Below the pieces are notes generated by a model that was given only the letters and a program-made list of their open reading frames with translations, was not told the DNA's origin and did not search any database. Below, one piece after another: positions 8,612-60,656 of a stretch of DNA of 64,000 nt. The stretch is from Guyanagaster necrorhizus. Taxonomy: Eukaryota > Basidiomycota > Agaricomycetes > Agaricales > Physalacriaceae. The translations under genes and the position numbers were made by a program. How positions within the stretch are numbered: position 1 is the stretch's first letter; each line of letters opens with the position of its first letter. The stretch is from the NCBI RefSeq assembly GCF_019112545.1, contig NW_025064907.1, positions 364,223 through 428,222 on the forward strand, read 5' to 3'.

Positions 8612-9916
8612 ATGGGTGCTGCTGGCTCAGTCATTCCTGCAGTTGTTGCAGCAGCAGGAGCCATCCCCGGTATCCTTGGCGCAGTGCGGGGCAGCAAAGT
8701 CAAGGAAAACCCGACGATGGCCACCATCGAGGGGCAGCTCAAAAATGCGGAGGCAGAGAAACTCAAGGCCCAGAAGCAGGCGGAGCAGTTCGAACGAGAG
8801 GTGCAGGCGCAAAAGGAAAGGATCAAAAACCTGCAGGATGCAACAGACAGAACGAGTCAACTTGTCGAACAGCTGGAAAGGGAAAGGCAAGCGCAGGCCG
8901 AGAGAAGCAGGGTCCAGCAGGAGGAGGTCGAAAGAGCGACTCAGACGGCAGCGCAATTGCAGAGGGAGAAGCAAGAGCAAGCCGAAATTGCCCAACGAGA
9001 ACGGGAGGCAGCTCAGAGGGCTGCTCAGGCTGCTAAGGAGTTGCAAGAGCAGGTGCGCAAGAAGGAAGAAGAGATGAAGAAGGTTTTGGAGGTCCAGAAG
9101 GAGATGGAGGCGAAGTGGAAGAAGGGGATCCATCCGGTTGAGTGGCCTTCTCGCGAGCAGTACGAGGCGAACAAACAACGTTTTTACAAGGAGGGAAAGT
9201 TCCATCTCGCCATCGCTGGAATTTCGGGGACGGGAAAATCGTCTCTTATCAATGCCTTTCGAGGCATTTGGGACGATGAGCAAGGCACCGCTGCGACGGA
9301 TATCGTTGAAAGCACGTCGGTGGTTACTCCTTACCCTGATCCGAATCCTGCCAACCCTTTCATTTGGTTCGATGTCCCAGGTTCGGGAACACTCGCGTGC
9401 TCAGACTGGACCTACTTTAATGACCAAGGACTCTATATCTTCGACGCCATCATCGTCTTATTTAATGACCGCTTCACCGCCACCGACATCGCCATCTTGA
9501 AGAACTGCGAGCGATACAAAATCCCGACCTACATCGTTCGTTCTAAATCTGATATTCACATTGAGAATCTCATCAAGAAGAAAAGGCGGGGAGCTGGCGC
9601 GAAGAATGACCCTGCCAAGATTCTTGACGAGGCTCGCAAGGAGTACCTCTCTAAGACGCAGGAGAGTGTTAGGTTGAATCTGATGAAGAACGATCCTCCG
9701 ATACGCTCGCAGAAGATGTATGCTGTCTCACGAGATACGCTGACTATGGTTGTTCGGGAGGAGCTGGTTGAGGATAGTCTTGTGCTGAACGAGGTCGAGC
9801 TGCTGAGGGATATCCTTCAGGATGCGTATTCGCGACGATCGGAGAAGTCGTACAGTTCCATGGCGGATCTCATGAAAAAAGCCGGCATGGATATCCTCCG
9901 TTTCTTTACCAACTAA
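8612..9916 (+). CDS. IRG-like GTPase 1 (434 residues)
   Basis: Predicted dynamin-like P-loop GTPase of the immunity-related GTPase (IRG) type. N-terminus MGAAGSV fits the myristoylation pattern (Gly2, Ser6) and is followed by an Ala/Val/Ile-rich stretch to about residue 26. Residues 35-185 form a long Glu/Lys/Gln-rich coiled coil. The G domain starts at KFHLAIAGISGTGKS (P-loop GISGTGKS, residues 203-210), then a switch-I-like ESTSVVTPY, G3 DVPGSGT (254-260) and a G4-like RSKSD (near 310-314; classic G4 is NKxD/TKxD). A conserved YAVSRDTL and the C-terminal tail SSMADLMKKAG follow. Single coding exon with a leader intron at 8542-8593. It is the first of six same-strand paralogues. Cell-autonomous defence or membrane remodelling is an inference from animal IRG proteins, not shown here. 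Confidence 0.88.
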   Translation: MGAAGSVIPAVVAAAGAIPGILGAVRGSKVKENPTMATIEGQLKNAEAEKLKAQKQAEQFEREVQAQKERIKNLQDATDRTSQLVEQLERERQAQAERSRVQQEEVERATQTAAQLQREKQEQAEIAQREREAAQRAAQAAKELQEQVRKKEEEMKKVLEVQKEMEAKWKKGIHPVEWPSREQYEANKQRFYKEGKFHLAIAGISGTGKSSLINAFRGIWDDEQGTAATDIVESTSVVTPYPDPNPANPFIWFDVPGSGTLACSDWTYFNDQGLYIFDAIIVLFNDRFTATDIAILKNCERYKIPTYIVRSKSDIHIENLIKKKRRGAGAKNDPAKILDEARKEYLSKTQESVRLNLMKNDPPIRSQKMYAVSRDTLTMVVREELVEDSLVLNEVELLRDILQDAYSRRSEKSYSSMADLMKKAGMDILRFFTN

Positions 9917-10534
9917 TGAGGTCTGGTTCCCTCTATTTTCTTCTGCTACGGACATTTTTTCTTACAGCTTTGTTTTTTGGTATCTGGAGGATTTAGCTCA
10001 GCCTTTACTCTTTTTGTTTCTTTTGCGGCTTGCCCGAATTGATCTCAGCGTATTGAATTGTCTCCGGACCTTTCTTCTGTAAAATCTACCATAGCTGTCG
10101 CCTCGAACACAATCTTGGTGATGTATGTGGCTGATCGTCTCTAGGTACATATCAAGTCGGATAGCAGGCACGCTAATCTATTTCATTTGTGTCTACCTAA
10201 GACTGCAATCAGAGTAATCTCTCCATATCAATATATCTGTACATTCGGCTGCCGTTACACGTCGACATCAACCAAGAGGACAAGGCGGTAACCATATGGG
10301 AGAAATGTTGAGAGTACGAGCCATGACTGCAGGCACAGTCGTACGGACCCTAATTTAGTTATCGGTACTCGCAATTTTCGCCGTTTACACAGCCACACAT
10401 CTTAGCGACCTACCGTCCGCTAAGATATACATTCTATTTTCTTGTTCCAGGCTGACCCTCCCTGTGCTCGTATCACCGTGAAACCTCGCCACCATGACCT
10501 CCCAAACTTCCTGGCCCACTGCTCAACAAGAAAG

Positions 10535-11085
10535 GTATCATAGCATTCTCACGGTGCAGGCTCTTCCTACTTCCTTTCGGTTTGGCTTTCAAGTTTCTCA
10601 TCACATCCGACGTGGTAAGGTAAAGAATTTGGGACTGCTGTCTCAGTATGTTAACGGCGAGCTTACTTGTTCTCAGGGTCCATATGGCAAAAAGGCACTT
10701 AGAGAATTTCCGACAGCACATCTTCACACCACCCCTTAGTTGCAAGGAAACCATCTGGTTCTTAACGTGCTTCGCTCTTCCGCCGCATTGTGATACAACA
10801 AAGTGTTGTCCCATGTCAACGAAACCTATAGTTTGCCCTTGCCCTTCACCCACCCCTGTGCGTCTAGCGCCTCACGCACACACACAACCGTCACTAAAAT
10901 TATGCAGATCACCGCCTTCACTCCTTACAATTGGACCGTGTTCTTGGTTCCATCATTTGACTAGTTCCTGTGCAGCTTTCCATCGATAACGACCAATAGT
11001 CTCTTCCATGATCTGTGAGGCAAGGTATATTTTTGGATTTTTGCCAGAAGAAAATAATCAGATAGCGCCTATCTTATGACGGGCA
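10535..11085 (+). repeat. Upstream direct repeat, copy 1 (before GTPase 2)
   Basis: About 550 bases similar to 13532-14071 upstream of GTPase 3, roughly 85-90% by eye over most of the length. It shows that the array grew by unequal duplication including promoter regions. Within it 10821-10935 is almost unchanged between copies. The copy ends with the TAGCGCCTAT motif. Confidence 0.85.
10821..10935. other. Near-identical 115-base noncoding block, copy 1
   Basis: From GAAACCTATAG to TTACAATTGGA it differs from 13807-13921 at one position by eye, while the flanks differ at about one base in ten. No long frame is shared. Includes a CACGCACACACACA tract. Confidence 0.7.
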
Positions 11086-11156
11086 CGCGAAGTTGGAGCT
11101 GTGATCGCAAGGGTCGCTCTTTGTATGAAACCCGGGGCTTATAAGAATCTTCACAG
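11063..11156 (+). promoter_or_regulatory. Putative promoter of GTPase 2
   Basis: TAGCGCCTATCTTATGACGG (11063-11082) lies about 75 bases before TATAAGAATCTTCACAG (11140-11156). Both elements recur upstream of GTPases 3 and 5, and the TATA/CTTCAC part recurs upstream of 4. TATA function is inferred from sequence and position. Confidence 0.55.
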
Positions 11157-12806
11157 AGTAGCTTTTTTTCTGACATCTCTCAGTTCATCGCTCCTCTGGT
11201 CTTCGACTTGTCGCCGCCATAGACGTATCCCCTGTTCATCGTTTCGTCAATCACCGACATCGCGTCTCCATTGTAATTTGTAAGACGAATAAAACAACTC
11301 AGCATGATATATACTGATTCGCATCGTTCTCTGCTAGAGTCTCTACGCGGCTTTATCCAAACAACCTTCGCTACTTCGCAGAAAGGTACTCGAGCACATG
11401 TCACAGGTGCCTACACATATCTCACTGCTGTCACTTTCAGCTATTGTCAAAGCATGGGCGGTACCATATCCTGGCTGTTTGGAGGCGGCGAAGTCGGGCC
11501 CAATCCGACAATGCAGGCCATCGAAGAACAACATAGAAGAGAGGAGGCCGAGAGATGGGAGCAGGCCGAAAGACTGAGGTGGGAACAAGAGGAAGTGCAG
11601 AGGGCTGCCAAAATCGCCGAGCAACAGAGATGGGAGCAGGACGAAAGACTGAGGAGGGAGCAAGAAGAAGCGACCGCTTCTGCTATGGCGTCCACCAAAA
11701 AAGAAAACAAAAAAAAGAAAAGAAAAAAAAGAAGAGAGGCGCAGAGAGCGGCCAAAATTGTGGAGCAGCAGAGGCAGGAACAGGCCGAGAGAATCAGAGT
11801 CCAGCAGGAGGAGGTCCAGAGGGCGGCTCAGATAGCAGCGCAGCTCGAGAGGGAGATGCAAGAGCAAGCCGAAATTGCCAGACGAGAACACGAGGCTGCT
11901 CAGAGGGCTGCTCAGGCCGCTAACGAGTTGCAAGAGCAGGTGCGCAAGAAGGAAGCGGAGATGAAGAAAGCGATGGAGGTCCAGGAGGTGATGGAGGCGA
12001 AGTGGAAGACAGGTATTCGTCCAGTCGAATGGCCTTCCAAGGAGAAATACGAGGCGACGAAGCGTCGTTTTTACAAGGAGGGCAAATTTCATCTCGCCAT
12101 CACTGGAATTTCGGGAACGGGAAAATCGTCTCTCATCAATGCCTTTCGAGGCATTTGGGATGATGATGAAGGTGCTGCTATGACCGATATCATCGAAAGC
12201 ACGTCGGCGGTTACTCCCTACCCTGATCCGAATCCCGCCCACCCATTCATCTGGTTCGATGTCCCGGGATCAGGAACGCTTGCGTGTTCTGACTGGACCT
12301 ACTTCAACGACCACGGTCTCTACATTTTCGACGCAATCATTGTCCTCTTCAACGACCGCTTCACTGCCATGGATGTCGCTATTCTCAGGAACTGCGAGCG
12401 GTACAATATCCCGACGTATATCGTTCGCTCCAAATCTGACGTCCACATTGACAATATCATCAAGAAGAAAAGACGGGAAGCTGGCGCGAAGAATGACCCT
12501 GCCGAGATTCTTGACGAGGCACGCAAGGAGTACATCGTGAGGACCCAAGAGAGCGTCAGGTCGAATCTGATGAGGAGCGATCCTCCTATCCGGTCGCAGA
12601 AGATGTATGCAGTCTCTCGGGATACGTTGACGACCATTGTCCGAGAGGAGCCGCTGGAGGATATGCCCGTGCTGAATGAGGTAGAGCTGCTGAGAGATAT
12701 CCTCCAGGACGCGCATTCACGACGAGTGGCAGACAAGTCTTATGGTTCAATGTCGGATCTTATGAAAAAAGCCGGGTTAGACATTTTTCAATTCTTTGCG
12801 AACTAA
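11089..12806 (+). repeat. Segmental duplication, copy 1 (GTPase 2 with its leader)
   Basis: Leader, both leader introns and coding region match 16522-18205 closely, including a shared GAAGTTGGAGCTG start, TATA motif and CCATTGTAATTTGTAAGACG at the first donor. The two copies differ mainly in the coiled-coil repeat number and the poly-Lys insertion. Confidence 0.85.
11454..12806 (+). CDS. IRG-like GTPase 2 (450 residues), with poly-Lys insertion
   Basis: Same architecture as GTPase 1. I chose the ATG at 11454, which begins MGGTISW, a myristoylation-type N-terminus (Gly2, Ser6). The frame is open back to 11304, but that part overlaps two likely leader introns (11280-11337 and 11386-11440), so the longer form is unlikely. 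The coiled coil is built of about 25-residue repeats and carries a unique 22-residue insertion (11673-11738) rich in Lys/Arg (KKENKKKKRKKRR). P-loop GISGTGKS at about residue 218, DVPGSGT and RSKSD follow, with the tail KSYGSMSDLMKKAG. From the leader to the stop it is nearly identical to GTPase 4 outside the repeats and insertion. Function inferred only. Confidence 0.87.
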   Translation: MGGTISWLFGGGEVGPNPTMQAIEEQHRREEAERWEQAERLRWEQEEVQRAAKIAEQQRWEQDERLRREQEEATASAMASTKKENKKKKRKKRREAQRAAKIVEQQRQEQAERIRVQQEEVQRAAQIAAQLEREMQEQAEIARREHEAAQRAAQAANELQEQVRKKEAEMKKAMEVQEVMEAKWKTGIRPVEWPSKEKYEATKRRFYKEGKFHLAITGISGTGKSSLINAFRGIWDDDEGAAMTDIIESTSAVTPYPDPNPAHPFIWFDVPGSGTLACSDWTYFNDHGLYIFDAIIVLFNDRFTAMDVAILRNCERYNIPTYIVRSKSDVHIDNIIKKKRREAGAKNDPAEILDEARKEYIVRTQESVRSNLMRSDPPIRSQKMYAVSRDTLTTIVREEPLEDMPVLNEVELLRDILQDAHSRRVADKSYGSMSDLMKKAGLDIFQFFAN

Positions 12807-13531
12807 CACAACCGGGTTTCCTCTATTCATCATGTACGAATTTATTGTTACAGTCTTTTTTTCCCTTTGTATGTAACGAAAAACTTCTTCCTCAATACTT
12901 CAGTCTTCAGCTCGTCAGTACCGCACCAAGGTAGCGGATGAAGGCCACCTCATAAGAGTGGCATCTCCCTTCTGAGTCCTATTTTTATCAGTCCGGGCCG
13001 TTTCATATTCGGTGACACTAGTACACAATGGCATCCGGTGCTTTGCCATTTGAATTACCTTCCGTGCTCCTCCAAGAAATCAAGATGAGAAGCTTTGCCG
13101 AGCTGCCCAATGGCCTTCACTTCTTTTAAGAAGAAATGTGATTTTTATTGAGATTGTACACGATAAAAGTTTTCTTCCACTTCAGGTCCGTTACATCTAC
13201 CTGTATTTTACCATGATGGTCAATCAGAGATGCACGGAAATTCATTGTCTCCGCTGTCGCTAACAACCAACCTATTCAAAGCCCTACACTTCAGCGTATC
13301 TCTCAACAGAATAGACATAGGAACCCCAGAAAGCGTCTCAGGGGCAGCAACAGCTCATGGCCTATCCGAAGTCTGCATCTCGCCATTCTCCATGGTCTCC
13401 AGAACAGCTATGAAACGTACGCATGCGAGACGGCAAACGCCGCCATCATTTGATTTCACAAATAGGTTTTCTGACGGTGTCTGTCACCTGTATAATAACC
13501 GTGACCGAGTAGAGTATCCTAGAAGACAAGG

Positions 13532-14071
13532 CGAAGGCATCGCAACGTTCGCGCAGGCTCTTTTTACTTCCTTTCAGTTTGGCTTCCAAGTTTCCCATCC
13601 CATCCGACGTGCTAAGGTAAAGAATTTGCGACAACCGTCGCAGTATGTTAGCGGCGAGCTTACTTGTTCTCAGGGTCTATATGGCAGAAAGGCGCTTAAA
13701 GAATTTCTGACAGCACATCTTCACACCACCCACTTCGTTGCAAGGAAACCATCTCGCGCTTCACTCTTCCACCGCACTGTGATACAACGTGTTGTCCCAT
13801 GTCAGCGAAACCTATAGTTTGCCCTTGCCCTTCACCCAACCCTGTGCGTCTAGCGCCTCACGCACACACACAACCGTCACTAAAATTATGCAGATCACCG
13901 CCTTCACTCCTTACAATTGGAACGTATTCTTGGTTCCGTCATTTTCCTAGTTCCTGAGCAGTTTTCCATCGATACCGACCAATAGTCTCTTCCATGATCT
14001 GCGAAGCAAGATATATTTTTGGATTTGTGCCAGAAGAAAAGAATCAGATAGCGCCTATTCTGTCACGGGCA
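13532..14071 (+). repeat. Upstream direct repeat, copy 2 (before GTPase 3)
   Basis: Second copy of the block at 10535-11085, in the same orientation and with the same position relative to the next GTPase gene. It ends with TAGCGCCTATTCTGTCACGG at 14049-14068. Confidence 0.85.
13807..13921. other. Near-identical 115-base noncoding block, copy 2
   Basis: Counterpart of 10821-10935 with one difference seen (CCCAACCC versus CCCACCCC). Confidence 0.7.
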
Positions 14072-14146
14072 TCTTGATGAAGCTGTTTAGGATTGGAACC
14101 GCCGTAACGAGATTCTCAGCACACAGTCATACAAGTACCTTCACAG
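14049..14146 (+). promoter_or_regulatory. Putative promoter of GTPase 3
   Basis: TAGCGCCTATTCTGTCACGG (14049-14068), then ATACAAGTACCTTCACAG about 80 bases later (14129-14146), paralleling the arrangement before GTPase 2. The TATA element is degenerate here. Confidence 0.5.
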
Positions 14147-14261
14147 AGGCTCAGTTCTTTAGTCGGATTCCTCGCTTCGTTCACTGTCTGCTTGGTCGTC
14201 GACAGTGCTGCTACCGCATTCGTGTCCTGACCATCGCTTGAATCATCACCGGGGTTCCACT

Positions 14262-14419
14262 GTAAGTATTCAGGACAAGCCGATTCAATATTTACACTCA
14301 CTCGCTCGTAGATTGTTATCAAGTTTGACATTTTAGTACTTCATTTGTGCCACCTCCGTTGAAAGGTACGTAGTATCAATTAGAGATGTTTTCCCGTTTC
14401 TGAATCACAAATGTTACAG
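14262..14419 (+). other. Two 5' leader introns of GTPase 3
   Basis: First intron 14262-14311 (GTAAGTATT...CTCGTAG); second 14366-14419 (GTACGTAG...GTTACAG), ending 13 bases before the ATG. The two-intron leader matches GTPases 2 and 4. Confidence 0.65.
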
Positions 14420-14432
14420 CTATCATCAAACC

Positions 14433-15830
14433 ATGGGTGGCGCAGTTTCTGCCGTCGTACGCACTGCTGCTTTGGTGATCCCTCCCATCGTAAGCGCTGC
14501 TGCTATCGCGATCCCTGCCATTATTAGCGCAATCAGGGACAGCAGAGTTGAAGACAACCCAACAATGAGGGCTATCGAAGAACAGCACAAGAGAGAGGAG
14601 GCGGAGAGAGCAAAAGCTCAACGGCGCCTCGAGCAAATCGAACGAGAGAGACAGGAGCAAGCCGAAAGACTGAGGCGGGCACAAGAAGAAGCGCAGAGGG
14701 CCGCCGAAATCGCCGAGCAACAGAGATGGGAGCAGGACGAAAGACTGAGGAGGGAGCAAGAAGCAGCACAGAGAGCGGCCCAAATAGCTGAGCAGCAAAG
14801 GCAGGAGCAGGCCGAGAGAATCAGGATCCAGCAGGAAGAGGTTCAATGGGCGGCTCATACAGCAGCGCAGCTCGAGAGGGAGAAGGAAGAGCAAGCCGAA
14901 ATTGCCAGACGAGAACACGAGGCTGCTCAGAGGGCTGCTCAGGCCGCTAACGAGTTGCAAGAGCAGGTGCGCAAGAAGGAAGAGGAGATGAAGAAAGCGA
15001 TGGAGGTCCAGAAGGCGATGGAGGCAAAGTGGAAGACAGGTATTCGTCCAGTCGAATGGCCTTCCAAGGAGAAATACGAGGCGACGAAACGTCGTTTTTA
15101 CAAGGAGGGCAAGTTTCATCTCGCGATCGCCGGAATTTCGGGGACGGGAAAATCGTCTCTCATCAATGCCTTTCGAGGCATTTGGGATGGTGAACAAGGC
15201 GCCGCTATGACCGATATCGTCGAAAGCACGTCGGTTGTCACTCCCTACCCTGATCCGAATCCTGCCAACCCTTTTATTTGGTTCGACGTGCCAGGGTCGG
15301 GAACGCTCTCATGCTCTGATTGGACCTACTTCAATGACCAGGGCCTTTACATTTTCGACGCAATCATTGTTCTCTTCAACGACCGCTTCACTGCCACAGA
15401 TATCGCTATTCTGAAGAACTGCGAACGATACAATATCCCGACGTATATCGTTCGTTCTAAATCTGATATTCACATTGATAATCTCATGAAGAAGAAAAGG
15501 CGGGGAGCTGGCGCGAAGAAAGACCCTGCCAAGATTTTTGACGAGGCGCGCAAGGAGTATATCGTGAGGACGCAGGAGAACGTCAGGTTGAATTTGATGA
15601 AGAACGATCCTCCTATCCGTTCGCAGCGCATGTACGCTGTCTCCCGGGATACATTGACGATGGTTGTGCGAGAGGAGCTGCTCGAAGATATGCTTGTGTT
15701 GAACGAGTACGAGCTTCTGAGAGACATCCTTCAAGATGCATACTCGCGAAGATCTGAAAAATCTTACGGTTCGATGTCGGATCTGATGAAAAAGGCTGGT
15801 ATGGACATTTTCGGATTCTTTGCGAACTGA
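14433..15830 (+). CDS. IRG-like GTPase 3 (465 residues)
   Basis: Longest member. It starts MGGAVSA, a myristoylation-type N-terminus, followed by a hydrophobic Ala/Ile/Val-rich region to about residue 35 that is longer than in the other paralogues and could contact membrane. The sequence then reads EDNPTMRAIEEQ, a motif shared by the family, and a coiled coil of four tandem repeats (14637-14942). The G domain has P-loop GISGTGKS at about residue 234, DVPGSGT, and RSKSD. The tail is KSYGSMSDLMKKAG and the protein ends FFAN. One coding exon, with two introns in the leader. The 3' flank shares CTTTGTATGTAACGAAAAAC with GTPase 2. Family assignment is strong; the role (cell-autonomous defence, vesicle action) is inferred from animal IRG proteins. 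Confidence 0.88.
   Translation: MGGAVSAVVRTAALVIPPIVSAAAIAIPAIISAIRDSRVEDNPTMRAIEEQHKREEAERAKAQRRLEQIERERQEQAERLRRAQEEAQRAAEIAEQQRWEQDERLRREQEAAQRAAQIAEQQRQEQAERIRIQQEEVQWAAHTAAQLEREKEEQAEIARREHEAAQRAAQAANELQEQVRKKEEEMKKAMEVQKAMEAKWKTGIRPVEWPSKEKYEATKRRFYKEGKFHLAIAGISGTGKSSLINAFRGIWDGEQGAAMTDIVESTSVVTPYPDPNPANPFIWFDVPGSGTLSCSDWTYFNDQGLYIFDAIIVLFNDRFTATDIAILKNCERYNIPTYIVRSKSDIHIDNLMKKKRRGAGAKKDPAKIFDEARKEYIVRTQENVRLNLMKNDPPIRSQRMYAVSRDTLTMVVREELLEDMLVLNEYELLRDILQDAYSRRSEKSYGSMSDLMKKAGMDIFGFFAN
14637..14942 (+). repeat. Coding minisatellite in GTPase 3
   Basis: Four in-frame units of 72, 75, 75 and 84 bases coding for coiled-coil blocks of the type IAEQQRQEQAERLRRAQEEA. Unit ends fall on QRAA motifs. 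Confidence 0.8.
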
Positions 15831-16573
15831 CACGACCGGGTTCCCTCTGTCTTGGACAATTAGCTAATCATTATGTACAATTGTTTGCTACAAATTTGTT
15901 CCTCTTTGTATGTAACGAAAAACTTCCGATAGATTTCACGACTTGGAGTTCCCACTAATGAATCCAACCTCTTCCTTCGTTCCCCCCTCACGTCTTTCAC
16001 AAGAACGCGTATGCTAAACCTCATAGCATTCAATTCAGTAAATCTGCTCTTCACGTTTGGTCCAAGCTTCTTGGCGCTGTGACTGTCAGGTTTCCTGGAA
16101 TGATGTCGCACGACACCCTCTCTTTTCAACGTCCAGGAACTGTTCTAACAGCATTGTTTCATGCCTTGCTGCATGTAGGCCATGTGGCTTTCCGTGGTGC
16201 TTCACCCTTTTGTGTGGGGGCCTCATGATCACCATTCTTACCGCCCATTTTTGCTCTAACCCATACCAACGTTCTTCATCGATTATCAATCATCCCAAGA
16301 ACATGACACTATAATCGGGAGGATCCGCCCGGTCATTCTGCGTTCATCTGACGTGTGATATGAGGGTGCGCCTTCCATTCGACATGAGTCCTCATCGATA
16401 CTACATTGGATGTCGAATACACTGTGACAAGCGCCAGCTACAAGTTCCGTGGCAGTAGCACAAATTACGGCGTATTCCTTGGATCATCATATGTGAAAGA
16501 AACCACCAATACCACACCCCCAGAAGTTGGAGCTGCGGGTCACAAGGCTCGCTCTTTGTATGAAACCCGGGCT

Positions 16574-16590
16574 TATAAGAATCTTCACGG
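16574..16590 (+). promoter_or_regulatory. Putative TATA region of GTPase 4
   Basis: TATAAGAATCTTCACGG, one base different from the GTPase 2 element. Two leader introns follow (16699-16756 and 16815-16869). Confidence 0.5.
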
Positions 16591-16882
16591 AGTAGCTTTT
16601 TTTTTGACATCTCTCAGTTCATCGCTCCTCTGGTCTTCAACTTGTTGCCGCCATAGTCGTATTCCCTATTCATCGTTTCGGCGTCTCCATTGTAATTTGT
16701 AAGACGAATAAAACAACTCGACGTGATATACACTAATTCGCGTCGTTCTCTGCTAGGTGCCGAGGTTAGAGGCTCGACGATTTATCCAAGGAACCTTCGC
16801 TAGTTCGCAGAAAGGTACCCAAGCACATGTCATAGATGCCTACACATATCTAACTGCTGTCACTTTCAGCTATTGTCAAAAC

Positions 16883-18205
16883 ATGGGCGGTGGCATATCT
16901 CGGCTGTTTGGAGGCCGCAAGGCCAGGCCCAATCCGACAATGTGGGCCATCGAAGAACAGCATAGAAGAGAGGCGGCGGAGAGAGCAGAAGCTCAACGAC
17001 GCCAGCAAATCGAACGAGAGAGGCAGGAGCAGGCCGAAAGACTGAGGCGGGCGCAAGAGGAAGCGTGGAGGGCCGCCCAAATTGCGGAGCAGCAGAGGCA
17101 GGAACAAGCCGAAAGACTGAGGCGGGCGCAAGAGGAAGCGCAGAGGGCCGCCCAAATTGCGGAGCAGCAGAGGCAGGAGCAGGCCGAGAGAATCAGAGTC
17201 CAGCAGGAGGAGGTCCAGAGGGCGGCTCAGATAGCAGCGCAGCTCGAGAGGGAGATGCAAGAGCAAGCCGAAATTGCCAGACGAGAACACGAGGCTGCTC
17301 AGAGGGCTGCTCAGGCCGCTAACGAGTTGCAAGAGCAGGTGCGCAAGAAGGAAGCGGAGATGAAGAAAGCGATGGAGGTCCAGGAGGTGATGGAGGCGAA
17401 GTGGAAAACAGGTATTCGTCCAGTCGAATGGCCTTCCAAGGAGAAATACGAGGCGACGAAACGTCGTTTTTACAAGGAGGGCAAGTTTCATCTCGCCATC
17501 ACTGGAATTTCGGGAACGGGAAAATCGTCTCTCATCAATGCCTTTCGAGGCATTTGGGATGATGATGAAGGTGCTGCTATGACTGATATCGTCGAAAGCA
17601 CGTCGGCGGTTACTCCCTACCCTGATCCGAATCCCGCCCACCCATTCATCTGGTTCGACGTCCCGGGATCCGGAACGCTTGCGTGCTCTGATTGGACCTA
17701 CTTCAACGACCAGGGTCTCTACATTTTCGACGCCATAATTGTCCTCTTCAATGATCGCTTCACTGCCACAGATATCGCTATTCTCAGGAACTGCGAGCGA
17801 TACAATATCCCGACGTATATCGTTCGCTCTAAATCTGACATCCATATTGCGAATATCATCCAGAGGAAGAGGCGGTCAGCTGGTGCCAAGGTTAATCTTG
17901 CCAAGATTCTTGACGAGGCACGCAAGGAGTACATCGTGAGGACCCAAGAGAGCGTCAGGTCGAATTTGATGAGGTGCGATCCTCCTATCCGGTCGCAGAA
18001 GATGTATGCAGTCTCTCGGGATACATTGACGACCATTGTACGAGAGGAGCCGTTGGATGATATGCTTGTGCTGAACGAGGTAGATTTGTTGGGCGATATC
18101 CTTCAGGACGCGCATTCACGACGAGTGGCAGACAAGTCTTATGGTTCGATGTCGGATCTTATGAAAAAGGCCGGGTTAGACATTTTTCGATTATTTACAA
18201 ACTAG
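16883..18205 (+). CDS. IRG-like GTPase 4 (440 residues)
   Basis: Recent duplicate of GTPase 2. The ATG at 16883 gives MGGGISR, again Gly2/Ser6, and lies 13 bases after the second leader intron; the frame is open upstream to 16757, but that region overlaps the likely intron 16815-16869. The coiled coil contains four tandem repeat units (17009-17314), two of them almost identical at the DNA level. P-loop GISGTGKS at about residue 208, DVPGSGT and RSKSD are intact. The segment after RSKSD differs from GTPase 2 (IQRKRRSAGAKVN in place of IKKKRREAGAKND). It ends LFTN. No frame damage seen, so probably functional. Role inferred as for the other members. Confidence 0.87.
   Translation: MGGGISRLFGGRKARPNPTMWAIEEQHRREAAERAEAQRRQQIERERQEQAERLRRAQEEAWRAAQIAEQQRQEQAERLRRAQEEAQRAAQIAEQQRQEQAERIRVQQEEVQRAAQIAAQLEREMQEQAEIARREHEAAQRAAQAANELQEQVRKKEAEMKKAMEVQEVMEAKWKTGIRPVEWPSKEKYEATKRRFYKEGKFHLAITGISGTGKSSLINAFRGIWDDDEGAAMTDIVESTSAVTPYPDPNPAHPFIWFDVPGSGTLACSDWTYFNDQGLYIFDAIIVLFNDRFTATDIAILRNCERYNIPTYIVRSKSDIHIANIIQRKRRSAGAKVNLAKILDEARKEYIVRTQESVRSNLMRCDPPIRSQKMYAVSRDTLTTIVREEPLDDMLVLNEVDLLGDILQDAHSRRVADKSYGSMSDLMKKAGLDIFRLFTN
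17009..17314 (+). repeat. Coding minisatellite in GTPase 4
   Basis: Units 17009-17080, 17081-17155, 17156-17230 and 17231-17314. The first two differ at only a handful of positions, indicating a very recent in-frame duplication of a 72-75-base unit. Confidence 0.85.
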
Positions 18206-19140
18206 TTTCTTCTCTTAGTTTTTTTTTCTCTCTCTGTATACATTATGGTACGATGTTGGTCTCCAGTTTGTCTTTAGCTTCGGTTCGACTTTAACCTGTC
18301 CACTGTCTCGTGTTAGTTCAAATTCACATTGTTCAGTAAAGCATTCGTTGGGCTTGAGCGTTCGTTTGCTCGTCTTCATTCTGATGCGTTCATTTCTGAG
18401 AGCTTGGCGCTTAACACTTTGCGAAGAGTGAAAGGATAAAAAGTTTCGAACGAAATGGGCTGCGCTGGTGGCGTGAGAATAATTTGGGCCCCCTGCGACG
18501 ATTGGGTGCGATATCCCAAAGGTGCAATCAGACGCTCGATAACGGGTTGCACTATCTGCACTTCGACTCTGAAGAGAAAATCTCTGACTGTCAGTGTTGC
18601 AACAACTCCTTTCAATCGAAGAGGGCGGTTGATTTGGGCTTCCTGACTTGCTCTGTTACGACGACGACTCAGATCTGTTACTTGTATAGAGGCCAACGGC
18701 AGGAAAGCATGCATTTTATGGACCAAACTCCAGGGAATCATCGCTTATTTAGTGGCGTCGCCTACTGGGGCTGCAACAAAGTCCTTGCTCTCCACCCACA
18801 GTGCGAGTATTCTCTGTATGCCTCGCACTTCCAACGTTATTACATCTGTTCTGCAGCCTGCGGATAAAATGGCCTTCTTCTCGTATCATACAAGTGCTGC
18901 CGACTGTTTGTGACGTGCTTTCTTTCCAGGCCTACCCGTGTCTTGCAAACATCCGAACTAAATTTCTAAAGCACATTCTCACCGACGATCCCTTCATGGC
19001 TTGAGGCATCCGCGACCAGCGAAAAATAACAAATATCTCGAGGACATTCGGATCCCTATCTTTGAGGTCCTAGAAGCCTCCAACAGAACATGCGAAACTA
19101 TAGCGTTTCACGATAAGACCCTAAGCAGACACCTATCATC
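18206..19140. other. Intergenic, no gene recognised
   Basis: A plus-strand frame of 127 codons from 18484 is Cys- and His-containing, but I see no family and no intron signals that extend it. Treated as noncoding or unrecognised. Confidence 0.35.
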
Positions 19141-19875
19141 ATGGACGTATTATTGCATTCCTTCCTGAAGTATGATGCTGCATATGCGGTCCTACAATCC
19201 TTAGCCTCATCATTATCACTGACGCAGTCTTATACTCAGTACCGCGATTTCCGCAACAGAGCACATGCACTTCTGGCCCGGAACGCGGCGCAGGGTATGA
19301 TACCAGAGAGGGCGGGAGGCAGCTCAGAGGATGTCCCAGCAGACGAACAGGAAGGAGGCGGAGATGAAGAAGATATCGGAAGACCAGAACGAGATAGAGA
19401 TAGAGGCACAGTAGAAGAAGGGAACTCACCCTACTGCCTACTGAGTGGCCGTCTCGAGAGCGGGCCGAGGCGAACGAATGACGGGTTTACTGATGTAATA
19501 TCGCCATCATCGGGTCTCCAGGAAGTGGCAAGTGGTCTTGGCGAACGCATTTCAAGGCATCTAGAAGGCGCTCTTCCAACGAATGTTGTTGAAACCACCT
19601 CAGTTAGTGCTCCCTAACCCATCCCGATCCAGCAGACCCTTTCATCTAGTTCGATGTTCCATCCTCAGGCGCTGCCTCATGTCCCAACTGGACCTCCCTT
19701 AACAACCAAGGCCTCTACATCTACGAAGCCATCATCACTTTCAATGATTGCTTCTTTGCCACTCTGCACACGCTATATGATCCCCTCCTGAGTTGTATAC
19801 TCTAAATCCGTACATATTGACAAAACGTATCAATAAAAACGGCGGGGCGCTAGACCAAGGGTTGATCTCGTGAAG
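19141..19875 (+). pseudogene. Dead IRG-like GTPase copy
   Basis: Degenerate member of the array. Recognisable in order, in shifting frames: coiled-coil end (KEAEMKK), the linker TEWPSRE (intact copies have VEWPSRE), a P-loop-like GSPGSGK, NVVETTSV (intact VVESTSV), then PDPADPFI-stop-FDVPSSG and NNQGLYIYEAII. The Trp codon of PFIWFDVPG is replaced by TAG, frames shift at least twice, and similarity fades after the HID-like segment near 19840. The P-loop Ser/Thr after GK is also lost. Orientation and position (between GTPases 4 and 5) fit loss of a former tandem member. The divergence is greater than between living members, so the death is old. Confidence 0.88.
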
Positions 19876-20696
19876 AATACTTTTCATCTAAATACGCGGC
19901 GGCTGCCTATGGCACGGTGCCGAGTCTTTGAGCGCGAATCTCCTGGAACGCTGCTCCGTAGAAGATGTTTCAATAATGGCTGTGTCTTTACTGGGCTTGG
20001 TGACTTCTCTCTTCCTGTTCAGGCAACTAGGATCAGAAAACCTCCTTCCTCTAGAACATAACATCCACGACGATTTCCATACCTTCACAGCACTTACTGA
20101 ACTCAAGCGGCGTAAGGTGTTGCCGCTCAGTAATACCAAAGCGCATCCGAGATCAAATTTCTGGTGTCCTTGCTGTATCATGCCAGCATCTGCCCGCCTG
20201 GTTGAACGCGTCACATTAAATCGGTAGAAAGATAGGCCCATTGGCATGAAGCTTGAAGGAAACATTCTCGATATGTTCCATTTAGCTCTGGTTTGAAGAA
20301 TCCGCTCCTTGGGCTTCCTCACAACTCCTTGACTAGGGCTTTGTTTCCGCAACATGCCTTTACAACATTCAACCGGTGTACATGGAAGTCATCGGCGCTT
20401 ATGTTGCTTCATTGCTATCTTTATCCTTCGGCGAACTCGTAGGACCTTACATCAATTAAGCGGTTAGCCCTGCTTTCATGGCACTGCCTGTCCTCCCTAA
20501 CAGTGTTAACAAGCCCCTTGGATTGTTCTATGATGTTTCAAGTTCTCGTGCGCAGCTACGGCTCGTAGAAATGAAGACTACTATTCTGCGAGTCTTATGA
20601 CCTGCAAGTATGGTTCTGTGATAGGACACTGTAACCACATCTCAACCCTCGAATTTCGATATATTCTTGGCTCACTTGTGAAATCAAACAAACAAC
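19876..20696. other. Intergenic, no gene recognised
   Basis: Open stretches on both strands around 19888-20355 show no family resemblance and no conserved splice pattern. Confidence 0.35.
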
Positions 20697-20817
20697 TGGC
20701 GCCTATTCTTGTGACAATACAGTACGAGCGGAACAAGAGCGGAATGAAGTGAAATACCTCGAGATGGAAACTTCCTTTAAAGGACTTCGCACATACTACA
20801 GGTATATATCTTCACAG
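20697..20817 (+). promoter_or_regulatory. Putative promoter of GTPase 5
   Basis: TGGCGCCTATTCTTGTGAC (20697-20715), then TATATATCTTCACAG (20803-20817). It matches both elements seen before GTPases 2 and 3, although the surrounding DNA is not alignable by eye. A leader intron GTAAGTCTTGG...GCTTTTAG follows near 20930-20988. Confidence 0.55.
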
Positions 20818-21078
20818 AAGGCTGAATTTCTCTCGGTCCCTCATCTGTGCCTTTGCTTTGACTTCCGCCTCTCGCTGTGGTACCTCTAACCATCACTTTT
20901 GTGAACTCTTAAATCAAGACCCTGTTGTAAGTCTTGGAAACGAACACCTATAATGCATATACTCAGTCGCTTTTAGATCCCGCATTCAAACGTTTCGAAT
21001 AAATTCCGCTCATCTTACTGTAATGTACGCAGCACAGAAAAGACCGTCCCGCATCTGATTGTAATATTTTTAGCTGTA

Positions 21079-22230
21079 ATGTGGAGCTTTCTGTCTACGC
21101 TTGCTGCAGTTGCCGTCCCAACCATCCTCGGATGGATTCGGGGTAATAAAGTTCGGGAGAACCCAACCCTGGCCCTCATGGAAGAGCGATTTCGGAGAGA
21201 GAGAGAAGAATCCGACCGCCGCATCCAGCAGGTTCAGAACGAGGCAAACCAGGGTCGTGACTATGCCGCACAGCTTCAGAGGGAGAAGCAAGAACAAGCC
21301 GACATAGCCAGCAAGGCGAAGCTGGATGCCGACAAGGCTGCAAAAATCGTCGATGAACTACAAGACCAGGCAAACCAGAAGGATAAGGAGATGAAGAACA
21401 TACAGGCGGCTCAAGAGGAAATGGAGGCGAAATGGAAGAAAGGAATTCGTCCTGTCGAGTGGCCTTCTCAGGAGCAGTATGAGAAGATCAAGCGACGGTA
21501 CTACAAGGAAGGGAAGTTCCATCTCGCTATCGCCGGAATCTCTGGAACCGGCAAATCGACTCTTATCAACGCCTTTCGAGGTATTTGGGACGGCGACGAG
21601 AAAGCTGCTCCGACCGATGTTGTCGAAAGCACTTCCGTCGTTACTGCATACCCCGATCCGAATCCATCCAACCCTTTCATTTGGTTTGACGTCCCGGGAT
21701 CAGGAACCCTCTCGTGTTCTGATTGGACGTACTTCAACAACCAAGGACTCTTCATCTTCGATGCCATTATCGTTTTATTCAACGATCGTTTCACCGCTAC
21801 AGATGCAGCCATATTGAAGAATGCCGAGCGGTACAACATCCCCACCTACATCGTTCGTTCCAAGTCCGACATACACATCGAAAACATCATTAAGAAAACA
21901 CGGCGGATGCCCGGCGCAAGAGCCGATCCCACCAAGGTTCTTGACGATGCTCGCAAGGAGTTCATGAAGAAGACGCGGGACAGTGTTCGCACTAATCTGA
22001 TGAAGAACGATCCGCCACTTCGATCGCAGAGAGTGTATGCTGTCTCTCGAGATACGCTTACTCTGTTGATTCGGGAGGAGCCGCTTGACGATAACATCCA
22101 GCTCGACGAGTACGAGTTGTGGAAGGACATCCTTCAAGATGCGTTCTCGCGACGATCCGAGAAGTCGTACGGTTCAATGGCAGAGCTCATGAAGAAGGCT
22201 GGTTCTGGAATCTTAGGACTCTTCGCATAG
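21079..22230 (+). CDS. IRG-like GTPase 5 (383 residues)
   Basis: Shorter, more diverged member. It starts MWSFLSTLAAVAVPTILGW, hydrophobic and without Gly2, so not a myristoylation substrate. It then has the family motif RENPTLALMEER, a short coiled coil with about two repeat blocks, and RPVEWPSQEQ. The P-loop GISGTGKS is at about residue 153, followed by ESTSVVTAY, DVPGSGT, RSKSD and YAVSRDTL, with tail KSYGSMAELMKKAG. An AG (ATTTTTAG) lies five bases before the ATG, suggesting the same leader-intron layout as its relatives. The reading frame is intact. The different N-terminus suggests direct hydrophobic membrane contact or a different partner; this is inference. Confidence 0.87.
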   Translation: MWSFLSTLAAVAVPTILGWIRGNKVRENPTLALMEERFRREREESDRRIQQVQNEANQGRDYAAQLQREKQEQADIASKAKLDADKAAKIVDELQDQANQKDKEMKNIQAAQEEMEAKWKKGIRPVEWPSQEQYEKIKRRYYKEGKFHLAIAGISGTGKSTLINAFRGIWDGDEKAAPTDVVESTSVVTAYPDPNPSNPFIWFDVPGSGTLSCSDWTYFNNQGLFIFDAIIVLFNDRFTATDAAILKNAERYNIPTYIVRSKSDIHIENIIKKTRRMPGARADPTKVLDDARKEFMKKTRDSVRTNLMKNDPPLRSQRVYAVSRDTLTLLIREEPLDDNIQLDEYELWKDILQDAFSRRSEKSYGSMAELMKKAGSGILGLFA

Positions 22231-23289
22231 TAATATGACAAGTCTCCTGCTGTGGTTCATTGCGCGTTTTTTGTCCATTTTCTCGCCGATATGCTTTACT
22301 TTAATTCGTCGATAGATTCTTGTTGCTGGAAATTTCTCTAATTTAGACCCAGATTTAGCCTAGCGTTTGTCGTCTCGTGCATTCAAATTTTATTTGATTT
22401 CTTCTTGCTGTGGACCTGTGGTGGGAGGTGGGGAGTTGTTATTTCATCGTGTGGGTTAAGGGACATGCTTGTCTGGGTACTTTCTTGTTCCTATCATGTG
22501 CGTTCGGCGTAGGTGGTTGTGACTGTTGGCCCGGAGAGCTGGCTAGACTACTTTTGCTTGCGGGTGAGTACCGGTGCGGTGCGGGCTGTCGGTGGAGTGG
22601 GTGTCTGTTTAATATATTAGCTGCAGGCGTGACCACCGTGCCAGCCGCACCTTTTAGCTTTTTCGTCGGTGCGTTGTCTCTTCCTCTTCCTCCTCGGTGT
22701 CGGCTTCGTCCGGAGGTTCCTCGCGCCCTTGGTGTTCCGCGGCCCTGGCTGTTCATTTCCCTGGGGGGGGGCTGTCAGGGCTGTTCTGGTTGTTGTGCGA
22801 GCACTCACGTCTGACATTTATTTTCTTGTTCTGGCTGTGTTATATTTTTTTGCGTCTTGAAGCGTTTGCTCAGACTTTGAGGCAGCGTCATAGTACCGTT
22901 TAGTGTCGGCCTTTGCTGGTTGGTGGCTCGGTCGAGAGCAGTTGTACGGATCCTTTGCGGGTGTCCCTTTCTTGGGAGTCTCATCGGTCTTGACTGGAGA
23001 CTAGTAACTTCATGTGTTAGCATAGATTGAATTACGCATGGTAGGTGGACTCTCACAGATGTTGAGGTGCATTCTGCATCTTTATAGATAGTTCTGTGAA
23101 CTGGTTTAGTATTCTTCCTTGGTTTTAGCTTGGCTGATGTGCCTCGGGTTTCTGCAGGACTATCATTCTTGATATGAGGCGTTTTGCTAGGGTCGGAAAC
23201 CCGTGAGTGTTCCTGTGCGGGGCGAGACGAGCTCGCTCTTTGCCACTATCTCGTGGGAATATCTCGGCCACATGGTAGTTGGAGATCCC
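22231..23289. other. Intergenic, no gene recognised
   Basis: G/T-rich stretch (22380-22800) with open frames on both strands but no recognisable protein. Confidence 0.35.
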
Positions 23290-23752
23290 CGCCTACGAAC
23301 GGATGCAATTGTCCAAGAGCATCCAAACCCTTCATCACTACTTCAGAGGTCTCGGCAAACCTGCTTAACGCGCTATCAATTTACTTTGTGTCCAGAGAAA
23401 GTAAACTAATTACTGTAGCTGCCGATGAGATCGCTGATTCGTTTGCTGTATACCAAAGTATTGAAAGACGCGTGGGACGTCGAGATATCAGAGAGACTGA
23501 CGGTGTCTACTAAAGTACGTTGACAGAAAGTCATATATTTACTGTTGGCTGCTCACTGAACTTTTTAACCTTCTCTTGCGTCTTAGACAGCTCTGTTTTT
23601 GAATACACAGCTTCGTACGCGGCGTCCAGTAACTGCTAGCGATGCAGATCCTCCGGAACGTCGTCGCTATCTGCATCAGTTCCATTTATGATGATTTTCG
23701 GTAGAAGACGAGGCTTGTCCATGTCTGGGGAAGGAGTAACAAGATAGTTATC
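23290..23752 (-). pseudogene. Broken 5' fragment of the EF-hand/ZZ-finger gene
   Basis: Minus-strand copy of the start of the gene at 41929: the ATG at 23722 (MDKPRLLPKI), NGTDADS and DVPEDLHR followed by a TAG where the intact gene has Gln, then intron 1 and exon 2 (SEVVMKGLDALGQLHPFVG). Further stops and frameshifts occur in exon 2. Similarity stops at GTAGGCG, the exon-2/intron-2 boundary of the parent. It includes sequence just upstream of the ATG (CTTCCCCAGAC) and keeps intron 1, so it is a DNA-level copy. It lies between GTPases 5 and 6, about 18 kb from its parent and in opposite orientation. Confidence 0.9.
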
Positions 23753-24679
23753 TTGCTGGAAAGCAAGTTCCCAGTCGTTTCCTAGGCGACACTTGTGTGG
23801 GCAAATAGACGTCAATAAACCGTCGAGCGGCTATTCAAACATAGAAACAGTCCCGCCTTCATGTATCCCTCAATACCGCTCTCTGATCTCCTCAACGAGA
23901 TTGTCGTAACCGTCAACAGCCCCGCGACCACCCCCAATTTCCGCCTTAACAGACCGTCGTACGACTAAAATTGGATGTGAATTCACGTTTTCAACCACGT
24001 TCAATTAGTTTCAAGTTCAGAGCGCTTCAATGATCTTCCAATGAAATGTCTTCATAACTATCACTTCAGTTCTAGACCGAGGATCTTGCTAGTGCTCCAC
24101 TCTTTCGCGCGTTCGCGGTTCAGCAGATCAAAAGGCGCCTCATCATCAATATATTCCCTGGTTGGCCTTCTTGTCACTTAAGCTATTCCTTGCAGCGCCT
24201 ATCAACCTCATGGAATTCGTCACCTTGGCCGTGGAAAGCACCGTGTCCTGTATTGGCACAATACGCGCCGTTCCAGTGCCTCGGTCGTCCTAACCCATCT
24301 TGCATGACGAAACACCGTGGGAGCTGCAAGGCGGTTATGTGACAATGGCGCTGTACCGATCATTTGTTCCCAAGTTTAGACCAAGTTTCTGATCTTCTGT
24401 GAAACTAGAAGAGCGCTTATAATTTTTCAGGACAGTGAGAACGTGAAGAAGTAGAAGTTGGACCCTCCGATTCCGCCCATAAATTGTACAAGAAGCACTG
24501 CAGAGTGCTTGCCGGCCTCTTGTCTGCGACGCTTTCTTTGTGCGTCTTCTCACCTGGTTGCAACCCTATAAACATCCTCGTTCCTGTCAGTACATATAAT
24601 ACCTGTTTTTTTTCGGTTGCTGAGCGTGTTCACCATCAGATTGGACGTTGGCCAGCACAATCTGTTATTTTACCTTTAG
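23753..24679. other. Intergenic and probable leader of GTPase 6
   Basis: No gene recognised. A TATA-like CTATAAACAT near 24567 is the best promoter candidate. GCGCCTAT occurs near 24195, but without the rest of the motif shared by GTPases 2, 3 and 5. Confidence 0.35.
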
Positions 24680-24773
24680 GTATACGTTTTGTGCGGTGAA
24701 CGTCGACCTTGGTTTCTGACTGTTGTTATTCCGTACAGAAAGAGCCAAAACCGCACTCGAACAAAATTCGACT

Positions 24774-25745
24774 ATGGAAGAGCAGCTCCGGAGGCAGGCA
24801 AACGAGTCTCATCATCGCGCCGAACAGCTCCGTAGAGAGAGGCAAGAGCATGCTAATAACGCCAGGACGGCACAGCTAGAAGCTCAGCAGGCGGCGCAGC
24901 GCGCTGACAAGCTGCGAGAGCAGGCCAGGCAGAAGGATGCAGAGATAGAAAAGGCGTTGCAGGCTCAGAAGGATGTGGAGGCAAGATGGCGGAAAGGTCT
25001 TCGTCCCGTCGAGTTGCCTTCTAGGGAGCAGTTCGAGGCGATCAAGCGACGCTATTACAGAGACGGAAAGTTTCATGTCGCTATTGCCGGAAGATCAGGA
25101 ACTGGAAAATCGTCTCTCATCAATGGATTCCGGGGCGTATGGGACGGCGAGGACGCTGCTGCCTCAACTGACTATGTGGAGAGCACCTCCGTTGTCACCT
25201 CATATCATGATCCGAATCCTGTCAATTCTTTCATCTGGTTCGATGTCCCGGGATCGGGGACTCTCGCCTGTTCCGACTGGACCTATTTCAACGATCAAGG
25301 ACTCTACATTTTCGACGCTATCATAGTCCTATTTAACGATCGCTTCACCGCCACAGACGTAGCCATATTGAAGAACTCTGAGCGATACAACATCCCCACC
25401 TATGTCGTTCGCTCCAAATCTGATGTTCACGTTATGAATCTCCTCAAGAGGAAACGACGAAGAGCTGGCGCGGGGTGTGATCCCGGCAAGCTCCTTGATG
25501 AGGCTCGCAAGGAATTTGTTGCCAAAACGCAGGAGAGCGTCAAATTGAATCTGATGGGGACCGATCCCCCACTTCGGTTAAAGAAGGTGTATGCTGTCTC
25601 TCGGGATACGCTTACTTTGATTGTCCGAGGGGAACCAACTGAGGATAGCCTCGTGCTTGACGAGTTGGAGTTGTTGAGGGAGATACGTCAGGATGCGTAC
25701 TTGAGGCGATCCCAAAAATCATACGCTTCGATCGCGAGTCTGTAG
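24774..25745 (+). CDS. IRG-like GTPase 6, shortened at both ends (323 residues)
   Basis: First ATG in frame is at 24774 (MEEQLRRQ), after a likely leader intron 24680-24738 (GTATACG...CGTACAG). The bases just upstream of the ATG still encode a degenerate form of the family motif (LEQNST for RENPT), so the ancestral N-terminus with its lipidation or hydrophobic part has been lost or moved to an unrecognised exon. The coiled coil is short. The G domain is intact: GRSGTGKS at about residue 106, ESTSVVTSY, DVPGSGT, RSKSD, YAVSRDTL. The C-terminus stops at SYASIASL through a TAG, about 16 residues before the family end. It could be a specialised soluble form or an early pseudogene. Confidence 0.8.
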   Translation: MEEQLRRQANESHHRAEQLRRERQEHANNARTAQLEAQQAAQRADKLREQARQKDAEIEKALQAQKDVEARWRKGLRPVELPSREQFEAIKRRYYRDGKFHVAIAGRSGTGKSSLINGFRGVWDGEDAAASTDYVESTSVVTSYHDPNPVNSFIWFDVPGSGTLACSDWTYFNDQGLYIFDAIIVLFNDRFTATDVAILKNSERYNIPTYVVRSKSDVHVMNLLKRKRRRAGAGCDPGKLLDEARKEFVAKTQESVKLNLMGTDPPLRLKKVYAVSRDTLTLIVRGEPTEDSLVLDELELLREIRQDAYLRRSQKSYASIASL

Positions 25746-41868: not shown

Positions 41869-41926
41869 GTCAGTCCCATGAATAACTGTTATATTCTTAC
41901 TACCACGTCGACAACTTCTTCCCCAG
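41869..41926 (+). other. Probable 5' leader intron of the EF-hand/ZZ gene
   Basis: GTCAGT (after GAATTCAG) to CCCCAG, ending two bases before the chosen ATG at 41929. The broken copy at 23.7 kb keeps CTTCCCCAGAC at the same place. Confidence 0.5.
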
Positions 41927-41928
41927 AC

Positions 41929-57753: not shown

Positions 57754-58339
57754 ACTCAAGAAGACATCCAGGTGCAGATCACTGAGCTACAGAAAGAAGA
57801 AGAAGGACTTGGCAAGGAAACAAAGGTTGAGGAAGTAAAAGACATGGCCAGCCAGTGAGCAATTTCACTAAACCAGCTAAAGGACTTCATAGTGTGTTGA
57901 TAATAGCTGCTAGTCAGACTGAAAAAATCTCTATAGTTACACCTATGTATGCATTACATATGCATTTGAATATACCACAGTTAATGACACCACATACTGA
58001 AGAATTACAAAATAAGACTCAAATGCCTATGGGCTGAACAGAGGCAGAGGGTCTCAACATATGGCTCAAACCATTCGATACCGAGTGGACCTGGAGAGTG
58101 ATCAAAGATGCCAGGAATGAGTCAGCAGCAAAAGCTGTACTCTGGAACTGGATCTATCACACACAGAACAGCAAGATCACCAATAAGGTGATAAACAGAG
58201 TAAAGAAGGCTGAACAATGCCAGGCTCTGGAATGGCTTGATGAACTCCATGGGCCACAAAAGTTTATCTGATGAACCAAAACCCTTGGATGAGACCTGGT
58301 CACTAAAGTCCAGATTAAGACTCTTACATCCCAGTCAAC

Positions 58340-58660
58340 CCATGCAGTAACCACCCTGATTGACAGCAGCTGCATCAGGAGCTCAATCAACTATGCTTTT
58401 GTCAACAAGCACAAACTTCCAATGAGGGCAACAGCAGCCCCAATCTCAGTCTATAATGCTGATGGGACCAAAAATCAAGCTGGCTCGATCACTGAGTTCA
58501 TTGAACTCAGATTGACAATCAGAGATCACTCCAAGTGGATTGACTTGGCTATCACAGATTTAGAGACCAAGGAGATTTTCCTTGGTCATGATTGGTTAAT
58601 ATGCCACAACCCATTAATCAATTGGAAAACTAAGAGAATTACATTTGCCAGATATCAATG
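58340..58660 (+). pseudogene. Aspartic protease region of element A
   Basis: Reads VTTLIDSSCIRSSINYAFVN, where active enzymes have a D[ST]G triad; here Gly is replaced by Ser, so it is probably inactive. It continues with IFLGHDWLICHNPLINWKT, the conserved end of the retropepsin-like domain in this group. Confidence 0.75.
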
Positions 58661-60647: not shown

Positions 60648-60656
60648 CTCCTCTTT
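60647..60656 (-). other. Polypurine tract of element B
   Basis: AAAGAGGAGG on the minus strand, directly before the 3' LTR: the expected plus-strand primer site. It lies a few codons after the end of the chromodomain-like coding trace. Confidence 0.65.

Follow-up and report, generated by a model that had tools for sequence, protein, structure and literature searches.

The window analysed here, a stretch of 64,000 nucleotides of the genome of Guyanagaster necrorhizus, a wood-decay mushroom relative (assembly GCF_019112545.1, 53.3 Mb; contig NW_025064907.1, below C28, positions 364223-428222), carries between its positions 8612 and 25745 a tandem array of genes for GTPases whose G domain is, as is well supported by sequence comparisons, of the type found in immunity-related GTPases (IRGs). 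Results of our analysis suggest a fungal GTPase family in which this G domain would be set on a different body. The proteins would be anchored to membranes at the N-terminus by a myristoylated glycine-2, a hydrophobic stretch or both; a coil, which differs in length between copies, would act as a stalk with the G domain at its distal end, and most copies would finish with a short amphipathic tail. In the GTP-bound state, two G domains would meet face to face and mutually activate hydrolysis via an interface of the type described for mouse Irga6 (equivalents of E106, R159 and D164), and this pairing would draw the anchored stalks together, leading to the coating or tethering of membranes; the paralogues would differ chiefly in anchor and stalk. 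The most likely use of such proteins would be a cell-autonomous response, inside hyphae, to membranes that are damaged or of foreign origin. We regard the chances that the array encodes membrane-anchored, self-activating GTPases serving a response of this kind as about even, the defence role, which is plausible, being the least sure part of this reading.

The array and the assignment of its G domain

The six same-strand paralogues and one dead copy that a first-pass annotation of this DNA had described at 8612-25745 are confirmed by open reading frames (ORFs) and motifs. The genes, all on the plus strand, are g1 (8612..9916, 434 amino acids (aa)), g2 (11454..12806, 450 aa), g3 (14433..15830, 465 aa), g4 (16883..18205, 440 aa), g5 (21079..22230, 383 aa) and g6 (24774..25745, 323 aa), and their products match the IIGP model of Pfam (PF05049) with E-values of 6.9e-24, 2.6e-23, 4.2e-23, 1.6e-23, 5.2e-22 and 2e-22, respectively. 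The mechanical ORF starts of g2, g4 and g6 are at 11304, 16757 and 24723, and the starts chosen by homology are at 11454, 16883 and about 24774. The start position of g6 is common to its relatives P0040, P0043, P0045 and P0048, and this gene may have an extra first exon upstream that is not visible in the ORF. The degenerate copy (19428..19763, plus strand) comprises a G-domain part only, detected as a match of 41% identity with three TGA and two TAG inside.

The P-loops of the six ORFs are encoded at 9218, 12105, 15132, 17504, 21535 and 25089, and DVPGSG follows at a distance of 153 bases in every case. The motif set given earlier thus holds for DVPGSG in all six genes and for GISGTGKS in five, g6 reading GRSGTGKS at 25089, and the switch region varies slightly between genes (VESTSVVTPY, IESTSAVTPY, VESTSAVTPY, VESTSVVTAY and VESTSVVTSY).

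The count of six is right for the window, but the full array is bigger. Three further intact genes, u1, u2 and u3, lie on the minus strand upstream of the window (C28:332.7-342.3 kb), along with a second remnant copy at about C28:328.0-328.9 kb. A search of the 53.3-Mb assembly with PF05049 gave at least nine matches, all of them on C28 between 332,992 and 389,679, i.e., within 58 kb, and all nine intact genes are single ORFs. The segment with g2 (10544..13971, plus strand) recurs as an inverted repeat around u1 (C28:331299-334811), with identity of 92.6-94.4% in pieces and down to 79% across g1/u2. The best DNA self-match of the degenerate copy is to the u2 copy (76% to C28:335667-335935). 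A run of 2,420 N (C28:328879-331298), either an assembly gap or a masked stretch, adjoins the second remnant and interrupts the duplicated segment about midway, and another inverted pair of about 449 bases with 86% identity (23289-23737 and 41914-42361) links the array with the far side of the window.

Several database records of this species concern the same genes. Record P0057 is identical to u3. Record P0017 contains g1 whole and adds 94 residues upstream of it, an extension that we regard as an artefact, because the relatives begin at MGxxxS. Record P0034, a protein of 270 aa whose contig measures 2,451 bases, shares 97% identity with g3, and no exact match to it was found in the 53.3-Mb assembly; it may represent an additional, tenth gene or else an allelic form of g3. 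Seven armillarioid entries (P0001-P0007) resemble two fused G domains, but we did not adopt the idea of tandem double-G-domain proteins; P0006 (G. necrorhizus), the one examined, is read as a fused gene model because it spans u2 and u1, each with its own start and stop. Entries of similar appearance also occur among the other database matches listed.

The best model for all six window proteins is IIGP (6.9e-24 to 5.2e-22; 78.9-85.1 bits against a cut-off of 24), no other family scoring higher, and in the single-sequence and profile searches of the PDB mouse IRGs rank first, in the profile search at 6e-28 to 6e-19 with the next family following at 4e-4. Searches with PADLOC and NCBIfam models gave weak matches only, most of which involve the coil or the P-loop, those to NCBIfam all being under cut-off. 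It is hardly credible that the G domain comes from another P-loop GTPase family (MMR_HSR1, dynamin, GIMAP or septin) with the IRG match as a by-product: the runner-up MMR_HSR1 passes its cut-off of 21.9 bits marginally (22.3-27.9 bits; 2.7e-6 to 1.5e-4) and the NCBIfam bacterial dynamin model matches g5 at 5e-4, far under cut-off, whereas IIGP reaches 79-85 bits in the same proteins, IRGs lead the PDB profile search by a margin of 14 or more orders of magnitude, and none of the Pfam models of dynamins, GBPs, AIG1/GIMAP proteins or septins matched at E up to 1, a range in which matches above 0.1 are mostly removed by the filters of HMMER. As a peculiarity of certain relatives, the proteins P0110, P0111 and P0114 (Rhodonia/Postia) have Leu in place of the G4 aspartate (VRSKSL), as do in total five of the 71 rows of the fungal alignment described below, which may alter guanine specificity.

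The likeness to IRGs proposed in the first-pass annotation applies to the G domain and not to the whole protein. The IIGP matches of the six window proteins stop at profile position 161-176 of 375, i.e., they cover the G domain only. Since a relative from Flavobacterium matches positions 14-313 of the same model (6.7e-45), the model detects the helical part where it is present. Also the profile-profile alignment between 71 fungal and 40 bacterial proteins, 157 columns long, ends at the G5 motif. By these matches, the C-terminal helical part of IRGs is absent from the array proteins, and a long putative coil of another kind, unmatched by the IIGP model, seems to occupy the position of the N-terminal helical domain. 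The Flavobacterium saccharophilum protein used as a control (L014:2950-4065) covers 300 positions of this mouse-derived model, more fully than the fungal proteins, and has many relatives in Bacteroidota and metagenomes among the matches listed. It came from a genome scan that confirmed two of at least 593 candidate stretches; the other one, cyanobacterial L015, was mostly a coil match and was not used.

Putative anchor, coil and trans-activation residues

Seven of the nine copies, including four of the six window genes, start with the myristoylation-type sequence MGxxxS. In g1 (MGAAGS), g3 (MGGAVS), u2 and u3, glycine-2 is combined with a hydrophobic stretch (best 19-residue Kyte-Doolittle mean 1.07-2.34), and g2 (MGGTIS), g4 (MGGGIS) and u1 have glycine-2 without such a stretch (-0.33 to 0.34). 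Among the relatives, the counts were made on the 66 proteins that keep the N-terminal anchor region, the 155 of 221 without the NPT anchor in the first 90 residues being left out. An MG start is present in 57 of these 66, in 44 of them as MGxxxS, and two of the nine non-MG relatives have MGxxxS further inside. In all 221 relatives, there are 86 MGxxxS starts, 10 others of PROSITE type, 15 other MG starts and 110 proteins with no MG. A membrane anchor at the N-terminus of the array proteins is fairly supported.

The N-terminal coiled coil predicted earlier is backed by composition and by repeats. The putative coil is 47-153 residues long in the nine copies, with 61-83% of E, Q, R, K and A; it is short in g5 and g6, the latter having no tail, and in g3 and g4 it contains repeats of 75 bp (25 residues; 14647-14826 and 17019-17191, respectively) with 78-92% matches. 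As for the possible role of the anchor, the part of a study consulted here describes myristoylation of Irga6, with reference to unpublished data, as indispensable for targeting to the vacuole (PMC2901525), and a membrane model of IRGB10, as given in the section of the source used, combines myristoylation with head-to-head G-domain dimers (PMC7815755). By analogy, we infer that the array proteins may be lipidated, dimerise and act on membranes.

According to the consulted part of another study (PMC3042988), mutations of E106, R159 and D164 of Irga6 abolish GTP-dependent oligomerisation or hydrolysis; certain E106 variants remain able to oligomerise, and no E106 variant hydrolyses GTP. The inhibitory GMS proteins have Arg, Gln and His, respectively, at these positions (PMC3042988, same part). 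We transferred the Irga6 numbering via the alignments of the PDB search to an alignment of 71 rows, of which 69 were picked by length and spread from the best 120 database relatives and two are window proteins. The equivalents of E106, R159 and D164 are present in 71, 67 and 70 of the 71 rows, respectively, and all three in 66. The full triad is also found in eight of the nine G. necrorhizus copies, u2 having Cys for Arg.

This substitution is characteristic of a whole lineage: the position equivalent to R159 reads Cys throughout the u2 lineage (13 of 13) versus in one of the 106 other scorable proteins; for the R-to-C change in P0036, gene conversion was considered as a possible source. All 13 u2-lineage members keep the GKS of the P-loop, with no Lys-to-Met change as in GMS-type regulatory IRGs. 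By analogy with the GMS proteins (Irgm1-3), in which Gln stands at the R159 position (PMC3042988, in the part consulted), the u2 class may be a partner or a brake of the effector-type paralogues; unlike GMS proteins, it retains both the P-loop lysine and the equivalents of E106 and D164.

A candidate shared upstream element was found before several genes of the array. The word CTTCTGTGAA (TTCACAGAAG) occurs at 8318..8327 (plus strand, 294 bases before g1), at 20811..20820 (minus strand, i.e., reversed, 268 bases before g5) and at 24394..24403 (plus strand, 380 bases before g6). It is also located at C28:336726, at -295 of u2, and a version with one mismatch is at -293 of g3. The 110-kb region contains no exact occurrences other than these four, each of which precedes an IRG gene, and the whole genome has 172 sites of CTTCTGTGAA versus 109 of the reversed word. 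The 9-mer CTTCTGTGA is present in five of seven upstream regions, compared with no more than four in any of 200 dinucleotide shuffles and 200 random window sets; in this test, which covered seven of the nine regions (g2 and u1, near copies of g4, were left out), the word was chosen post hoc and common descent is a confounding factor.

Age of the copies and alternative explanations

A tree of 124 G-domain rows, with a midpoint root used for drawing only, was built without seven G. necrorhizus records taken as duplicates of the genes described here or as fused models (P0034, which is not a duplicate, was among them). Lineages shared with Armillaria and Desarmillaria include g5 (8 rows, support 100/100), g6 (7 rows, 100/100), u2 (13 rows, 100/100) and u3 (16 rows, 100/99), and g1 is placed, though weakly supported (90/66), at the base of a group of 25 rows that includes the u2 lineage. 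The genes g2, g4 and u1 form a Guyanagaster-specific clade (100/100), which g3 joins weakly (97/55). The array is thus, on the evidence of this tree, composed of copies of differing age, some old and some recent, and its earlier description as actively duplicating suits the lineage of g2, g4 and u1 (weakly also g3) and not g5, g6, u2 and u3 (weakly also g1), which belong to cross-genus lineages. Seven Desarmillaria ectypa proteins are on contigs of equal size (4,568,377), which hints that the copies of this species are clustered too, equal contig size being only a proxy.

The ratio of nonsynonymous to synonymous substitution rates (dN/dS), calculated over the G part by the NG86 method, is 0.07-0.19 in 36 of 36 pairs, indicating purifying selection; the pairwise values give no sign of positive selection, many pairs having dS above 1, near saturation. 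Purifying selection was part of what the first-pass annotation had named as speaking against its interpretation, and these ratios lean that way. Across 38 armillarioid rows, variability is located in the N-terminus and coil, in the stretch that follows G4 and in the C-terminal part.

For membrane-anchored GTPases with a defence role speak, apart from the features of the proteins, the clustering of the genes with local duplications, the inverted segmental copy and the two remnants. Several observations weigh against this interpretation. The triad of trans-activation residues is equally kept in bacterial relatives (E in 117, R and D in 118 of 118 proteins, two of the best 120 matches without a P-loop match being left out) and therefore marks the G domain, not immunity. 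The anchor is not uniform: g5 (MWSFLS start) has the hydrophobic stretch (Kyte-Doolittle mean 1.59) without glycine-2, g6 (MEEQLRRQ start) has neither, and eight of the 57 MG starts of relatives are outside the PROSITE myristoylation pattern. No defence-labelled neighbour was found among the 30 other window ORFs scanned, which are part of the ORFs of the window. Strong purifying selection and cross-genus lineages fit a conserved cellular role equally well.

It is possible, though we would not put it first, that these proteins are constitutive GTPases of membrane remodelling or organelle tethering with no immune role, and that the array grew by dosage or tissue specialisation. Apart from the low dN/dS values, the well-supported lineages common to Armillaria and Desarmillaria are in favour of this explanation, the armillarioid common ancestor being dated to 51 million years in the consulted part of the relevant study (PMC5264464); the species-specific duplication of g2, g4 and u1, the two dead copies and the changes in stalk length, all observed in one genome, are against it. 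An allorecognition function, in which paralogues or alleles of the locus would trigger incompatibility when differing mycelia fuse, seems very unlikely to us: the variable N-terminus and coil, the clustering and P0034, a possible allele that the assembly does not contain, would agree with it, but no death-effector domain was found in the window proteins and the G part is under strong constraint.

The remaining features of the window lie outside the array. A partial RBR-type E3 ubiquitin ligase (UBA_ARI1, RING, IBR) is encoded on the minus strand at 29867-30805. Pieces of a Ty3/gypsy-type long terminal repeat element in 58293-63931 include an aspartyl protease (RVP_2, 58293-58661) and SH3_Tf2-1 (60773-61072), and an inverted pair of 74% identity (58488-60158 and 62261-63931) is associated with such pieces.

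Relation to known IRGs and significance

IRGs are discussed as a part of vertebrate intracellular immunity, and those of the mouse attack parasites within cells. The interferon control of mouse IRGs is not applicable to a fungus. Mouse Irga6, Irgb6/Tgtp2 and Irgb10 share with the array proteins the IRG-type G domain, the GKS of the P-loop, the Glu of switch I, the R159 and D164 equivalents and the G4 motif VR-[ST]-KxD. The mouse effectors differ from the array proteins in having the C-terminal helical part and, probably, in having an N-terminal helical part in place of the long putative coil. The sources consulted in part also give Irga6 and Irgb10 an N-terminal glycine for myristoylation (PMC2901525, PMC7815755), to which glycine-2 of most array copies would correspond.

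Bacterial IIGP-type GTPases (from Flavobacterium and others) have the same G domain type and the same E, R and D residues; unlike the array proteins, they carry the helical part, as judged from the one protein examined. Before switch I, they have two residues (118 of 118), versus seven or more in fungi and mouse; a seven-residue stretch is present there in 20 of 23 fungal rows and both mouse rows. Two inserts common to animal and fungal proteins would speak for animal-fungal kinship, but the identity medians offset them: mouse Irga6 is 33.7% identical to bacterial and 33.1% to fungal proteins, and Tgtp2 35.3% and 32.3%, respectively. As Irga6 is equally close to bacteria and fungi and Tgtp2 is closer to bacteria, we make no claim on origin. 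With respect to a viral origin, none of 600 pattern-matched stretches was confirmed.

The family is already annotated in databases; the array itself is real and compact. Fungal records named 'IRG-type G domain-containing' or 'interferon-inducible GTPase-domain-containing', names that stem from automatic annotation, belong to the same family and come, among the matches listed, from Agaricales, Boletales and Polyporales; one such match, P0101, is from Lentinula edodes. One database search gave 836 proteins at E 1e-3, the best 120 of each search being listed, and both our fungal and bacterial sets of relatives were drawn from such best 120 matches. Two homologues of interferon-inducible GTPases have been described from the genome of Acanthamoeba (PMC4053784, in the part consulted), so relatives outside animals were already known. 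In the literature on IRGs in fungi and on IRG evolution, covered mostly without subscription journals and partly by title and the start of the abstract, we found no functional study of fungal IRG-type GTPases. In two recent reviews on fungal cell death and immunity, a search for the terms GTPase, IRG, GBP, dynamin and interferon gave no occurrence in the main text (PMC12881547, PMC10197012).

The existence of a large fungal family with the same self-activation residues and a start of myristoylation type on another body would let the mechanism of the G domain be separated from its interferon setting, and this family can be named as a specific candidate for immunity in fungi other than that based on NLRs. 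In a further-reaching version, which we consider rather unlikely, mushroom-forming fungi would have an IRG-like cell-autonomous defence, with myristoylated effectors of intact E/R/D and regulators with the R-to-C change, switched on together via the shared upstream element. If this were true, the effector and regulator logic of mouse IRGs would either be older than animal immunity or have evolved on two occasions with the same G domain.

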